Assembly: GCF_000242635.2 (NCBI RefSeq)
Contig: NC_017770.1
Location: forward strand, 806,001 to 870,000
Length of the DNA stretch: 64,000 bases
Source: Solitalea canadensis DSM 3403
GTDB lineage: Bacteria > Bacteroidota > Bacteroidia > Sphingobacteriales > Sphingobacteriaceae
Reading direction: 5' to 3'
Position numbers and translations under genes: made by a program. Of the stretch, positions 55,041 to 62,968 are shown one piece after another. The notes below the pieces were generated by a model. It saw only the letters and a program-made list of their open reading frames with translations, did no database searches and had not been told where the DNA came from. Positions within the stretch are counted from its first letter, which is position 1; each line of letters starts with the position of its first letter.

Positions 55041-55643
55041 ATGACAGACAAAGAACTTATTGAAAAGCTAGGCTCATTAATGGGACGTACCATAACTGAA
55101 ATAAAATATACTCCAACCAAATTTCATTACTCGACAATTCATGGTAATTGGACAGATAGTAATCCTGATTTGTTTGTCCTTCATTCTCCAGAATGGCAAA
55201 TTAAGCTCTCAGATGGACAATCATTGTTTTTTAGAGCTCAGCGACTAAATGAAGAAAGATTTATATCAAAAGTTCTAATAAATGATTCCTCCATATATCT
55301 AGATGGGGGATTATTAACTATTCCAAGGTCATTCAATTGGATGGATGTTTTTGATAAGCCTATTACAAAGTTTAGACTTTGGCAGCGGATAATTAGTTCA
55401 ACAAAGTTTTTGGGGCATGAGTATAATGTTAAGCATCAGGTTCATTATCAAATCATTGAAATTTTATGTGCTGATAAGACTTTATCTTTAACAACTTTGA
55501 ATGGAGATATCGGAGAAGGTGTTTTCTATCCTACAGGGTATTTTGACGATAATCTTGGACTTTTTATTAATAAAATGGTCTGTAGTTCACATACTATTAA
55601 TAACCTGACGATGAGAATGGCAATGACTTATAAATCAAGGTAA
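55041..55643 (+). CDS. Unknown 200-residue protein next to a SUKH gene
   Basis: A soluble-looking protein with no signal or membrane segments and no recognised family. It has many aromatic residues (WQIKLSDGQSLFFRAQRLNE, RSFNWMDVF, KFRLWQRII). It starts at ATG 55041 and ends 20 nt before the SUKH gene, so the two are probably co-transcribed. SUKH proteins are often immunity proteins, so this could be a second immunity factor, or an unrelated gene; inference only. Confidence 0.68.
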   Translation: MTDKELIEKLGSLMGRTITEIKYTPTKFHYSTIHGNWTDSNPDLFVLHSPEWQIKLSDGQSLFFRAQRLNEERFISKVLINDSSIYLDGGLLTIPRSFNWMDVFDKPITKFRLWQRIISSTKFLGHEYNVKHQVHYQIIEILCADKTLSLTTLNGDIGEGVFYPTGYFDDNLGLFINKMVCSSHTINNLTMRMAMTYKSR

Positions 55644-55663: not shown

Positions 55664-56092
55664 GTGTTTAATAATGGAAAAATAGAAGAAATTCTTTTAA
55701 AATATAACTGTCCAAGGCGTATTAATCATTCTTCAACAACAATTGAACAGATTGAGAATCTTGTCAAATTTAAAATCCCTTTAGATTATAAAGTTTATCT
55801 CCAGAATTACTTAGGATTTGAAGAATTTATTGGGTCGAAATTTATGCACTTATGGGATTTGGATGAAATTATAGAATTCAACAATTATGGTATTGTGGAA
55901 AAACTGCCTAATACATTAGGCATTGGAAGCAATGCAAGCAGTGAATTTATCGCACTTGAACTTACCGAGGATGGTAATTGTCGGGTTGTTATCTCTCCGT
56001 TTATAGGTCTGGATAAGCAAGATCACATTGAAATTGGTACATCCTTTACAGACTTTTTAGTTCGATTAGATAACGGACAGGAGTGGTTTTAG
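55664..56092 (+). CDS. SMI1/KNR4 (SUKH)-family protein
   Basis: The 142-residue protein has the SUKH layout: an N-terminal region IEQIENLVKFKIPLDYKVYL and a core IGSKFMHLWDLDEIIEFNN, ending DFLVRLDNGQEWF. In bacteria SUKH proteins often neutralise polymorphic toxins; others have unknown roles. The start must be GTG at 55664, since ATG at 55662 is out of frame. No toxin gene is visible in the window, so this would be an orphan immunity gene. Terminator downstream. Confidence 0.85.
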   Translation: MFNNGKIEEILLKYNCPRRINHSSTTIEQIENLVKFKIPLDYKVYLQNYLGFEEFIGSKFMHLWDLDEIIEFNNYGIVEKLPNTLGIGSNASSEFIALELTEDGNCRVVISPFIGLDKQDHIEIGTSFTDFLVRLDNGQEWF

Positions 56093-58856: not shown

Positions 58857-59345
58857 TTAGATACTTATTTTCTTCTTTACTTCACCCTCTTTAAACACCA
58901 GGGTTTTATGAGCTTTACCATTAATTAAGTTAACAATATTAGTTTGGCCTTCAAAGTCATTTATCAAAACGGCCTGTTGTAACTCAGAATTATTTAATCC
59001 TTCAGGAAGTGGAATTTCCAGGTATATGCTCATCGTATCGCCTTTTATTTCTTTGCCTATAAACTGAAACGCTTTCAGTTGAGATCTACTGTTCTTTAGC
59101 TGAAAAACTTGTTGTAGGTAATTTTTAAGAAAGGTGTCGAACTCAGCATCATGGATATGAATTTGTTTTTTGTATTTCTTGGAAAGAGTAACCTCCAGAT
59201 CATCCCAAAATACATTCATGATTATCTCAACCGATTTTGTCTTGTTATTATACTCCATCTGTGTCATAGAGGTATAAAACTTGTGCGAACTAGCCGGTTG
59301 AATAAAAAGTAAGATCAACAACAAGGAAAGCAACCATCTCTTCAT
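58857..59345 (-). CDS. Secreted DUF6702-family protein, mature N-terminus predicted to be His
   Basis: The 162-residue protein has a signal peptide ending PASS, so cleavage (A-S-S then His21) would give a mature protein starting HKFYTSMTQ. It then follows a strand-rich pattern (KSVEIIMNVFWDDLEVTLSKKY) and has more His at 63 and 65. The sequence belongs to the DUF6702 family of unknown function. The N-terminal His resembles copper/nickel-binding sites of other secreted proteins (inference). The pattern resembles the soluble N-terminal region of two-domain HupE/UreJ proteins. Neighbours: M1 peptidase and HupE/UreJ gene on the same strand. Confidence 0.78.
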   Translation of the reverse strand: MKRWLLSLLLILLFIQPASSHKFYTSMTQMEYNNKTKSVEIIMNVFWDDLEVTLSKKYKKQIHIHDAEFDTFLKNYLQQVFQLKNSRSQLKAFQFIGKEIKGDTMSIYLEIPLPEGLNNSELQQAVLINDFEGQTNIVNLINGKAHKTLVFKEGEVKKKISI

Positions 59346-59446
59346 AAAAGCAAATCTATTGATATTTATTAGAAACAGCGTATTTGAAGCTTTAATATAT
59401 AACTCCAGTTATTAGTCCATTATAAATGAAAACCTGATGTAAACAA

Positions 59447-59472
59447 AAAGGCTGCCTTTTATGACAGCCTTT
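59447..59472 (-). terminator. Terminator of the M1 peptidase gene
   Basis: An 8-bp stem AAAGGCTG/CAGCCTTT, extended by one further pair past a mismatch; followed on the minus strand by T-rich sequence. Confidence 0.8.
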
Positions 59473-59492
59473 CATTATTGAATGATGTTAAA

Positions 59493-61841
59493 TTACTTGT
59501 TATTCTGAGAAGGGGCAGTTGTTGATGCTGAACGTGACCCTCTTTCAGTTTGCATCAGATTTGGCTGCTTAGTACGCTGCTGCTGTTTAAATAACTGGAA
59601 CTGCGAAGCTACTGCCTGTTCTGGATAATAATTGTTGGCCTGATTGATATCGGCAGTTTCCTGGAAAGGATCAAGTACAAATTGTTTTACCGGTTTATTG
59701 GTAATAAACATTTTCGATACTTTCTCATTGTTTTTTCTCCATATCTCAGCCGGAATACGAACTACTTCGTTAGTGCCATCTTCGTATTGCATTTGAAGAA
59801 TTACCGGCATTACCAAGCCACCTACATTTTCAAAATCTATCAGGTAAACATTCGTCGATGATGAGAGTAGTTTTTTCTCACCGTCAGACAAATTGTTTGA
59901 AATAGACTGGTACTTTTTACGATCATTTTCCGTAACATCTAAGGCGTTGTATTTATTGTAAAAGTCTTGTAATTCAGGGAATCTATCAACACGATATTGC
60001 TTGATGTTTGCCTGATTACGTTGGTCTGAAACAGTTTTAGGCGATTCCTGTTGCTTTTTACGCTGTGCTGTTTTCTCCACATCAGGATTTTGTGAATCAA
60101 TTTTATACCAACTTACATTTTTAATCGCTATGTCAACCGGATCTGTTCCATAAAACCATCCTCTCCAAAACCAATCCAGGTCAACGCTTGATGCATCTTC
60201 CATCGTTCTGAAGAAATCTGCAGGTTGTGGGTGTTTAAATTTCCAGCGTTTAGCGTATTCTTTGAATGAATAATCAAATAATTCACGACCCATAACCGTT
60301 TCTCTCAGGATATTCAATGCTGTTGCAGGCTTACCATAAGCATTGTTACCAAACTGTATAATTGATTCGGAGTTCGACATAATCGGTTCGATTGTCGATT
60401 TGTCACTCGACATGTACTGAACGATGTTTTTAGGCTCTCCGCGTCTTGAAGGATAATTTTGTTCCCATTCTTGTTCACTCAAATACTGCAGGAACGTATT
60501 TAATCCTTCATCCATCCAACTCCATTGACGTTCGTCGGAGTTTACAATCATAGGGAAGAAATTATGTCCAACTTCGTGAATAACTACTGAAATTAAGCCA
60601 TATTTCGTATCAGCGGAGTAGGTACCATCTTTTTCGGGACGAGGGCCGTTGAAACAGATCATCGGATATTCCATTCCACCAACAGGACCGTTTACTGAAA
60701 TTGCATAAGGGTATGGATAATCGAATGTATAGCGAGAATAAACCTCTAGTGTATGAGCAATAGCCTGAGTTGAATAGCGTTCCCATAATGGATTGCCTTC
60801 TTTAGGATAGGCCGACATTGCCATTACTGTTTTGCCGTTCACATTTACTCCCATTGCATCCCAGATGAATTTGCGGGAAGACGCCCATGCAAAGTCACGC
60901 ACATTGTCGCCTTGGAACACCCAGGTTTTTTTCTCTTTTGCGTGTGATTTTTCTTTAGCAGTAGCTTCATCCTGAGAAACAATAATAACCGGTTTCTTTG
61001 ATGATGATTTAGCTTGTTCTAAAAGGTCAATTTGTTTTTTCGTTAATACTTGAGCTGGGTTTTGCAAAGTTCCTGTAGCCACAATAATATGATCAGCAGG
61101 AACAGTAATACTTACTTTATAATCACCAAATTCCAGGGCAAATTCACCGGTGCCTAAGAATTGTTTGTTTTGCCAACCATTTACATCATCGTACACGCAT
61201 AAACGAGGGAACCATTGCGCCATTTCATAAATGTAGTTTCCATCTTCAGCAAAATACTCCATTGCACCACGTCCGCCAGCTTTTCTTGAATCATTGATGT
61301 AGTTAAACCAATCAACAGAAAAGCTGAATGATGCACCTGGTTTTAGTTGTTGCGGCAAATCCACCCGCATCATTGTTTTATTAATCGTAAAAGGGAGTGC
61401 TTTTCCACCTGTATCTTTTACACTTTTTATCTGATAACCCAGTTTCGACTTGTTATTGATCATTTTATCCAATGCATCAAAACTCATGTTCTCTACCTTA
61501 CCATTTGTTTGCGTAAGATGAGCATCCGAATTTTCCGCATAAATATTTTGGTCAAGTTGTAACCAAACATAGGTTAAAGCGTCAGGGGAGTTGTTGTGGT
61601 ACGTAATTGTTTCAGTGCCAGTAATGCTTTGATTTTCATCGTTAAGTTCAACCTTGATAACATAATCTACTTTTTGTTGCCAGTAGGAATGCCCAGGTGC
61701 ACCAGACCCATTTCGGTACTCATTAGGAGTGGGCCATAGTTCTTGTAACTGATGAAATTTGTTGTTGTTATAAATACCACCTTGCGCAAAAACGCTATGG
61801 CTTGCACAAAGTACAAGGAAGGAAAGTAAAATTTTCTTCAT
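59493..61841 (-). CDS. Secreted M1-family zinc metallopeptidase
   Basis: The 782-residue protein has a signal peptide (cleavage near VFAQ, residue 20). The M1 catalytic motif HEVGHNFF is present with the third zinc ligand Glu in MDEGLNTF; the substrate-binding GxMEN loop reads GGMEYP. The N-terminal saddle and a C-terminal half with a Pro/Gln-rich region are visible. It is a predicted periplasmic aminopeptidase. Position between DUF6702 and HupE/UreJ genes. Confidence 0.93.
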   Translation of the reverse strand: MKKILLSFLVLCASHSVFAQGGIYNNNKFHQLQELWPTPNEYRNGSGAPGHSYWQQKVDYVIKVELNDENQSITGTETITYHNNSPDALTYVWLQLDQNIYAENSDAHLTQTNGKVENMSFDALDKMINNKSKLGYQIKSVKDTGGKALPFTINKTMMRVDLPQQLKPGASFSFSVDWFNYINDSRKAGGRGAMEYFAEDGNYIYEMAQWFPRLCVYDDVNGWQNKQFLGTGEFALEFGDYKVSITVPADHIIVATGTLQNPAQVLTKKQIDLLEQAKSSSKKPVIIVSQDEATAKEKSHAKEKKTWVFQGDNVRDFAWASSRKFIWDAMGVNVNGKTVMAMSAYPKEGNPLWERYSTQAIAHTLEVYSRYTFDYPYPYAISVNGPVGGMEYPMICFNGPRPEKDGTYSADTKYGLISVVIHEVGHNFFPMIVNSDERQWSWMDEGLNTFLQYLSEQEWEQNYPSRRGEPKNIVQYMSSDKSTIEPIMSNSESIIQFGNNAYGKPATALNILRETVMGRELFDYSFKEYAKRWKFKHPQPADFFRTMEDASSVDLDWFWRGWFYGTDPVDIAIKNVSWYKIDSQNPDVEKTAQRKKQQESPKTVSDQRNQANIKQYRVDRFPELQDFYNKYNALDVTENDRKKYQSISNNLSDGEKKLLSSSTNVYLIDFENVGGLVMPVILQMQYEDGTNEVVRIPAEIWRKNNEKVSKMFITNKPVKQFVLDPFQETADINQANNYYPEQAVASQFQLFKQQQRTKQPNLMQTERGSRSASTTAPSQNNK

Positions 61842-62398
61842 CTAATTAGTGTGATCGATCGGAAGCTAAAGTAATTGGCTGGAATGGCAATATAAATACT
61901 TGATATGTAACATTTATAGTGATATATATTTTGCTAAAATGATTTATAGCCGAATTATGGAAGGGTTGGGGGCGAATTGCGGGTTACGGGTTGCGAGTTA
62001 TGGGTTGTGAGTTGCGAATTATGGGTTACGTGTTACGGGTTTCGAATTCCTTATTTGATGGATGAATTATTATTTTAATTATTTCTATAATTATTTCAAG
62101 TTGTTATTATTTGCATACTCCGTCGGGATACGGGATAAAAGATGGGTAGCAAATGAGATTATAATAAGTGTTTGTGCGCCGTAGGAACAAAATTTCAGTA
62201 ACCGTTTAGCCCTTAACAGGGCTATAGGAATGATGGAACAAGTTAATGTTACCGATGTATTGTCCCGGTGGACATTTTATTGAACCTGCAATTTGTCAAT
62301 TATTCAACGATAATTCTTCATTATGCAAAGAACTCGTAACCCGTAATTCGCAACTCACAACCCGTAACCCGAAACCCGCAATTCGAAACCCGTAATAT
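61842..62398. other. 557-bp gap carrying a composite repeat island
   Basis: I see no gene. The gap holds the two opposed GGGTTRCG arms (61973-62047 and 62333-62396) and, between them, a different repeat-like segment with a small hairpin AGCCC-TTAAC-AGGGCT and GTGCGCCGTAGGAACAAAAT / TACCGATGTATTGTCCCGGT motifs that I recall from intergenic repeats of other Bacteroidota (from memory, not checked). Confidence 0.6.
61973..62396. repeat. Inverted word array GGGTTRCG with internal spacer
   Basis: The left arm (61973-62047) has degenerate GGGTTACGGGTTGCGAGTTA-type words; the right arm (62333-62396) has the complement, CAACCCGTAACCCG-type. The best-matching cores are GGGTTGTGAGTTGCGAATTA plus GGGTTACG, about 29 bp with one mismatch. 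The arms are separated by about 286 bp. The right arm ends 3 nt before the hupE stop codon. Confidence 0.75.
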
Positions 62399-62968
62399 TT
62401 AAAAAGGAAACCGTTGCCACATCCAGATCGCTGATTGAATAAGGACTGGAACTGAAATCGAATAGGTGATGACTTTGGAACTTAACTTAAGATGGTTTTT
62501 GAGGATATAAATAATTACCATAATAGCTGAGATAATGATAATTTGTCCTAACTCCAGGCCTATGTTAAATGGTAACAATGTAGTAAATGCGTTAAATTTC
62601 ATACCCAGAAACAGTTCCTTCAATAAACGGGAGAATCCCATTCCATGAACTAATCCAAAGAATCCTGAAAATAAAACTCGATAGTTGTGCAATTTGGGGA
62701 TAAACAGGTTTTCGATACAGGTAAATAAAATGGTGAATGCAATCAGAAACTCAATAAATTCTCCATTTACTGCAATAATATCAAGTGCACATAATGCAAG
62801 GGTAATAGAATGGGCAATTGTAAAGGAAGTTACAATCCAAAAAATGCGTTTCCAGTCTTTAAAGTTATAAATGGCACAGATAGCAAATAGAAAAAGTATG
62901 TGATCATAGCCATGTAAATCAAGAATATGAAAGAAGCCTTGGTTTAGGAAAATATAAAATTGGTCCAT
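62399..62968 (-). CDS. HupE/UreJ-family membrane protein, putative metal permease
   Basis: The 189-residue protein has six hydrophobic segments. His/Asp residues are at the start (H14, H19, D22, H23: HILDLHGYDHILFLF), then IAHSITLAL and VHGMGFSRLL, matching the HupE/UreJ family, where such residues bind nickel or cobalt. It has no signal or soluble domain. A TATTTTTG -7 box is 4 nt before ATG, so the mRNA is predicted to be leaderless. It lies on the same strand as M1 and DUF6702 genes but is separated by the repeat island. Substrate metal unknown. Confidence 0.87.
   Translation of the reverse strand: MDQFYIFLNQGFFHILDLHGYDHILFLFAICAIYNFKDWKRIFWIVTSFTIAHSITLALCALDIIAVNGEFIEFLIAFTILFTCIENLFIPKLHNYRVLFSGFFGLVHGMGFSRLLKELFLGMKFNAFTTLLPFNIGLELGQIIIISAIMVIIYILKNHLKLSSKVITYSISVPVLIQSAIWMWQRFPF

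Follow-up and report, generated by a model that had tools for sequence, protein, structure and literature searches.

Whether a DUF6702 protein, an M1 metallopeptidase, and a HupE/UreJ permease encoded side by side in Solitalea canadensis DSM 3403 act jointly on a metal is the question raised by this locus, which lies near one end of the 64,000-nucleotide stretch of DNA analyzed here (the window). To our knowledge, no function has been agreed on for these three families in Bacteroidota. The initial annotation regarded them as a possible metal-handling module, with DUF6702 and HupE as the two parts of a split two-domain permease, an interpretation that is partly supported by the analysis below.

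The genes lie on the minus strand in the order glpD, HupE/UreJ_2 (62968-62399), M1 peptidase (61841-59493), DUF6702 (59345-58857), and lon, on the basis of open reading frames and Pfam matches. The zinc peptidase does sit between the other two genes as annotated, and all three reading frames are in place. The features considered are the following.

58857..59345, minus strand: DUF6702 protein, 162 aa, predicted to be exported, with a modeled Ang/ZrgA-like fold (PF20420, E 6.6e-39)
59286..59345, minus strand: predicted signal peptide, DUF6702 residues 1-20, ending in ASS before H (from sequence, by the (-3,-1) rule only)
59283..59285, minus strand: H21 codon, mature His1 of DUF6702 (His in 101/102 unique DUF6702 sequences)
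59199..59204, minus strand: D48-D49 codons (mature D28-D29), candidate metal ligands (D28 in 92/101, D29 in 100/101)
59446..59473, minus strand: intrinsic-terminator-like hairpin in the M1-DUF6702 gap (stem of 11 bp with a U-run; -16.2 kcal/mol, z -4.65)
59493..61841, minus strand: secreted M1 metallopeptidase, the module ortholog, 782 aa (PF01433, E 8e-15)
60507..60578, minus strand: M1 zinc site HEVGH (422-426) ... E445, of the HEXXH-x18-E type (from sequence; invariant in 13 aligned sequences including the window's)
61972..62395, no strand: dispersed repeat between HupE and M1 whose arms are inverted (69 nt each, 74% complementary)
62399..62968, minus strand: HupE/UreJ_2 permease of 189 aa lacking a soluble domain (PF13795, E 1.4e-42)
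62900..62929, minus strand: HupE first-helix motif H14-x7-D22-H23 (His/Asp/His invariant in 11 aligned sequences)

Family assignments are clear, with 133.6 bits for DUF6702 against PF20420 (cut-off 24) and 145.4 bits for HupE against PF13795, HupE_UreJ_2 (cut-off 24.5). The S. canadensis genome, a single contig of 5.2 Mb, carries one DUF6702 and one full HupE. The hairpin between M1 and DUF6702 is not listed by a simple scan; its strength (z -4.65) indicates that the two genes are probably transcribed separately here, which counts against a joint module. The lon gene also adjoins DUF6702 in the genome with the closest M1 (G122, locus L081; 67%), so that its presence reflects local synteny. A 37-residue HupE fragment found elsewhere in the same genome (G000:C1:1179242-1179352, L032) is probably a relic.

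Association between DUF6702 and HupE across Bacteroidota, which the annotation expected, was examined in 148 genomes of the phylum and in 296 Bacteroidia genomes that overlap the first sample. The smaller sample has DUF6702 in 42 genomes, HupE in 42, and both in 41; the larger has 148, 124, and 111, respectively. The Fisher p values for co-occurrence of DUF6702 with HupE and with M1 in the larger sample, 3e-33 and 5e-68, ignore relatedness. Far from rarely meeting, the two genes lie within 5 kb of one another in at least 63 of the 111 shared genomes (52 head-to-head and 11 in tandem; 20 of 31 families), whereas a crude estimate for random placement predicts about 0.4. The unlinked genomes comprise 36 with the genes on separate contigs or with the DUF6702 place unlisted and 12 with the genes far apart; the DUF6702 places of G314, G317, G334, and G358 are not among the matches listed, and three of these genomes are counted as unlinked. 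Of 43 divergent DUF6702-HupE gaps, 34 measure 49-131 bp (start codons assigned by rule), and no shared operator is seen by eye in the 43.

The peptidase belongs to the same neighborhoods. With M1 orthologs in the first sample defined by a score of at least 478 bits against the window's M1 (a threshold set after the match list was viewed), pairs less than 6 kb apart number 32/41 for DUF6702-M1, 17/41 for DUF6702-HupE, and 18/40 for HupE-M1, in the arrangements D< H> M>, H> M> D>, H> D> M>, D> M>, M> D>, D< M>, D> H>, and H> M> (D, DUF6702; H, HupE; M, M1). A query with HupE only against named genomes retrieved 80 loci, some ending at contig edges, of which 64 hold DUF6702 and/or M1 (both 42, DUF6702 only 9, M1 only 13, neither 16). 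Forty fetched stretches of 14.5-19 kb, the window's end included, were nearly all chosen around DUF6702; they contain it in 37 cases by construction, M1 in 30, and HupE in 16, and the next commonest gene family occurs in 11, all within L083-L097. Many loci in that range, mostly from family f4, also show by eye tandem secreted CarboxypepD_reg-like proteins beside the DUF6702-M1 pair and a PepE-like gene. Gene order is common within families and differs among them, while proximity is kept. HupE, M1, and DUF6702 thus form a real, rearranging, conserved three-gene set. Two observations count against a joint module: 37 of the 296 genomes have DUF6702 without HupE, so DUF6702 does not depend on HupE, and in family f4, probably Flavobacteriaceae, HupE lies elsewhere in 9 of 10 genomes.

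The relationship between DUF6702 and two-domain HupE proteins rests on fold, profile, and fusion evidence. An AlphaFold2 model of mature DUF6702, computed with 38 relatives, attains a pLDDT of 96.6 and a pTM of 0.89, and all 17 Foldseek matches in the PDB at E 0.001 or better are ZrgA, PA4063, or 9gce, the Ang-1 domain of a fused HupE. VIA-align superposes model residues 1-142 on residues 1-156 of the 9gce chain (124 residues, 2.8 A, Z 12.1), followed by ZrgA (Z 11.1) and PA4063 (10.1), before the next entry, an M1-type aminopeptidase, at 6.9; with scores 1 apart, 9gce and ZrgA are near ties. In this model, DUF6702 has the Ang fold. The DUF6702 profile matches the N-domains of 14 fused HupE proteins with a probability of 95.6 and a score of 54, against at most 14 for 60 column shuffles, 9.5 for the reversed profile, and 8.1 for the HupE profile. 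The match holds at probability 85.9 and score 38.9 without L185 and L190, a server run with 12 of the 14 gave 88, and a subgroup of five fused N-domains alone is weaker (11). Single fused proteins score lower against the DUF6702 profile (probabilities of 0.4, 62.5, and 55), which counts against the split reading, and PDB sequence searches with the DUF6702 profile, the fused proteins, and the N-domains did not find 9gce, ZrgA, or PA4063. One class of N-domains from fused HupE proteins, termed “HEVRPA”, also counts against it, showing no profile relation to DUF6702 (probability 0.1).

A natural fusion is found at locus L190 of G358, where a 449-residue protein combines a DUF6702-like domain at residues 32-162 (22.9 bits, slightly below the cut-off of 24; E 9e-5) with a following HupE. 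It has D at column 28 and A at column 29, and G358 has no M1 ortholog. The match in L185 is weaker (E 0.006), and among the proteins read a DUF6702-like domain is fused to HupE in these two alone. Sequence profile and model together indicate that DUF6702 and the N-domains of certain fused HupE proteins are homologous, and the “split version” proposed initially is a good description, with the Ang domain and HupE of the window residing on separate genes rather than on the single chain of an anglerase-HupE.

HupE itself appears to occur as a subtype tied to DUF6702. The His and Asp residues noted in its first transmembrane helix (H14, D22, and H23) are those invariant in the 11 aligned sequences, window's included. 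HupE linked to DUF6702 lacks an evident signal peptide and has HX7DH or HX8DH as its first-helix motif, whereas the HupE proteins read from 12 of the 13 genomes that lack DUF6702 (a fragment in G256 was left out) are HX6DH in 12/12, and 7 of these 12 seem by eye to bear their own signal peptide and an N-terminal His. Motif assignment by regular expression places DUF6702 and/or M1 within 5 kb of 67/81 HX7/8 HupE genes and 1/12 others where the locus extends 2.5 kb or more to either side; when short loci are counted, the figures are 83/111 and 1/48, with less than 1.5 kb available at most of the others. This set of loci is a biased sample, since DUF6702 was the starting point for fetching part of it, and some of the motif assignments (for example, L185, L201, and L203) are regular-expression artifacts. 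Two HupE proteins on alphaproteobacterial plasmids (L207 and L202) also have an apparent signal peptide and N-terminal His; the former lies near a DUF4198 gene and the latter near a metal-sensing repressor.

Candidate metal-site residues were assessed in 102 unique DUF6702 sequences from the fetched loci, of which 101 (including the fused L190 and two from Pseudoalteromonas) have the predicted N-terminal His. In mature numbering, D28 is conserved in 92 of the 101, D29 in 100, Y56 in 100, and Q114 in 100; H21, D48, and D49 are the full-length equivalents of residues 1, 28, and 29. The model has strands at 5-13 and 18-26 and a helix from 27, a register in which residue 1 should sit near 28-29. 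The further His residues at 63 and 65, to which the annotation drew attention, are present in the window protein but are not conserved (H at 63 in 6/101; at 65, H is outside the seven commonest states), and a role for them as metal ligands is not supported. The second DUF6702 paralog of one f3 genome (G012; L064:9098-9595) has neither the His nor the Asp pair.

A published relative, the “metal sequesterase” PaDUF6702 of Pseudomonas, binds Ni with a pM-range Kd, and Co and Cu with nM-range Kd values, through a modeled His1/His28/His32 site, according to the accessible text of PMC12537917 (Nat Commun 2025). It resembles the window protein in Pfam family, predicted N-terminal His, M1 neighbors, and beta-sandwich. 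Its ligands differ: the Pseudoalteromonas proteins have His in all three columns as published (H28 and H32, with D29), whereas Bacteroidota sequences mostly have D at column 28 and lack His32, and the window protein, with D28, D29, and V32, retains His1/Asp28 and not the three-His site, a difference that counts against the joint metal-handling reading. The Bacteroidota arrangement resembles instead the one-His sites given there for Ang-1 (His1/Asn41) and Ang-2 (His1/Asp33), and by this analogy the Bacteroidota form likely binds metal, although the metal may differ. The HupE “anglerases” that carry Ang-1 and Ang-2 (PMC12537917; 9gce) share with the window's proteins the modeled fold (Z 12.1), the predicted N-terminal His, and a HupE/UreJ_2 permease; they are one chain, compared with two genes and an M1 partner here, and the fused proteins read mostly have HX5DH in place of HX7/8DH. 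ZrgA, which serves a zinc importer as a non-canonical periplasmic binding protein (PMC9820375, as far as its accessible text goes), and PA4063 are zinc-binding proteins similar in fold to the DUF6702 model, but they have an ABC transporter partner and other zinc sites, and the DUF6702 profile does not match their sequences. The likeness of DUF6702 to Ang-1 is already published, as are M1 peptidases and HAD proteins among PaDUF6702 neighbors; HupE is not named as a neighbor in the accessible part of PMC12537917. The HupE link, the HX7/8DH subtype, the profile homology, and the fusion were not found in the literature on DUF6702, anglerases, and Bacteroidota HupE.

With regard to the identity of the metal, Rhizobium HupE, a nickel permease, has His and Asp in its first helix as does the window HupE, and both belong to the HupE/UreJ family, the latter as subtype HupE_UreJ_2. 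The nickel role of the Rhizobium protein is cited in PMC12537917. Urease alpha (about 190 bits) occurs in 3/148 genomes, in 1/42 of those with DUF6702, and has no match in the window's genome (G000); weaker matches of 22-26 bits in 12 more genomes were taken for other amidohydrolases. Nickel for urease is therefore an unlikely purpose. COX1, present in 141/148 genomes, is too widespread to be informative on copper.

The reading we consider probable is that the three genes are one functional set, a split two-domain anglerase-HupE permease that M1 accompanies almost constantly, with a metal hand-over. DUF6702 would be exported to the periplasm, where, folded like the metal-capture domains of Ang-1 and ZrgA, it may bind a transition metal via His1 and Asp28/Asp29 and pass it to the membrane-only HupE at H-x7-D-H of the first helix. 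M1 could then be the enzyme served by the metal or could free peptide-bound metal for DUF6702. Metal binding, hand-over, direction, and the metal itself are the parts of this scheme that we infer. If correct, it would give three families common in Bacteroidota a shared role, extend anglerase-type metal capture to a two-gene system, tie a peptidase to metal handling, and make HX7/8DH a sequence marker for HupE proteins that possibly depend on a capture protein encoded apart from them. A variant with a larger part for the peptidase is tentative and rather unlikely: cleavage outside the inner membrane would release metal or expose the DUF6702 N-terminus, feeding the HX7/8DH HupE, with M1-DUF6702 as a nearly obligate pair and fused Ang-HupE as the one-gene form without a peptidase.

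Equally doubtful, with the pairing data in its favor, is the proposal that DUF6702 is mainly a metallochaperone or stabilizer of M1, with HupE as an optional periplasmic metal supplier or a later addition. DUF6702 and M1 are indeed the tightest pair: with the M1 ortholog set in the second sample at E 1e-140 or better (our own cut), 143 genomes share the two (148 DUF6702, 150 M1), 7 have M1 and 5 DUF6702 without the other, and the distance is below 6 kb in 110/137 genomes with listed positions. M1 is present in 36/37 DUF6702 genomes without HupE and in 0/13 HupE genomes without DUF6702. DUF6702 is thus nearly always accompanied by the M1 ortholog. The pair extends outside the phylum to two Pseudoalteromonas megaplasmids, where the M1 and DUF6702 genes share one base and are followed by HAD and YebC, and neither record shows a HupE in the surrounding 5 kb. 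The M1 of one megaplasmid has 51% identity to that of the window across 752 aligned positions. The chaperone proposal leaves unexplained the 52 head-to-head DUF6702/HupE pairs, the L190 fusion, and the absence of the HX7/8 type from the 12 HupE proteins read from DUF6702-less genomes.

The N-terminus of DUF6702 is both the weakest part of the original case and its most interesting loose end. The window protein begins with MKRWLLSLLLILLFIQPASS followed by HKFY, and the A-x-S ahead of H21 fits the (-3,-1) rule, which makes the predicted exposure of the His plausible here. A simple signal-peptidase cut is not supported as the general route, given that the His, absent only from L064, is preceded by A, G, or S (never C) in 27/101 sequences and by F, L, V, R, or K in 60/101. 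One outcome that the annotation named as refuting it, a cleavage that leaves the His unexposed, is thus half realized, and the rarity of a classical site counts against the joint reading. For comparison, in Porphyromonas gingivalis, likewise a member of Bacteroidota, A-X-A is the cleavage motif that can be recognized according to the available text of PMC5837995, and that of PMC12537917 gives an N-terminal His as predicted for 65% of the DUF6702 family. Many relatives may reach a free N-terminal His by another route, use the side chain only, or be anchored.

Such a route could be provided by M1 itself, trimming the residues left after signal-peptide cleavage until the N-terminal His, which is improbable. 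The scarcity of A/G/S/C ahead of the His and the strong DUF6702-M1 pairing agree with trimming, as does the Pro that follows the His in 60/101 sequences, the bond before Pro being one that M1 enzymes resist. Yet the window and Pseudoalteromonas proteins keep M1 despite good sites before the His, a test of Pro at +2 against a poor -1 residue gives a Fisher p of 0.07, and the position of GXMEN, the exopeptidase motif of M1 aminopeptidases, reads GGMEYP invariantly in 13 aligned sequences. The AlphaFold model of M1 is poor (pLDDT 62) and was not used. Proximity that reflects common descent or housekeeping surroundings and no shared function, consistent with the orders common within families and with lon beside DUF6702 in the nearest relative too, is very improbable and already disfavored by the changes of order among families at retained proximity, by the lack of any other gene family in more than 11/40 fetched loci, and by the L190 fusion.

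Other elements of the locus deserve brief mention. The repeat within the 557-bp HupE-M1 gap has inverted arms of a 7-nt-periodic repeat flanking a core of about 270 nt, and one arm is matched at 30 places in the genome when the element's own two arms are counted, frequently in inverted pairs; the element is MITE-like or REP-like. Rfam at the gathering threshold has no match within the 64-kb window. Just beyond the lon end, an SMI1/KNR4 (SUKH) protein (55664-56092) lies beside an unassigned 200-aa open reading frame (55041-55643) and is possibly an immunity-type gene.
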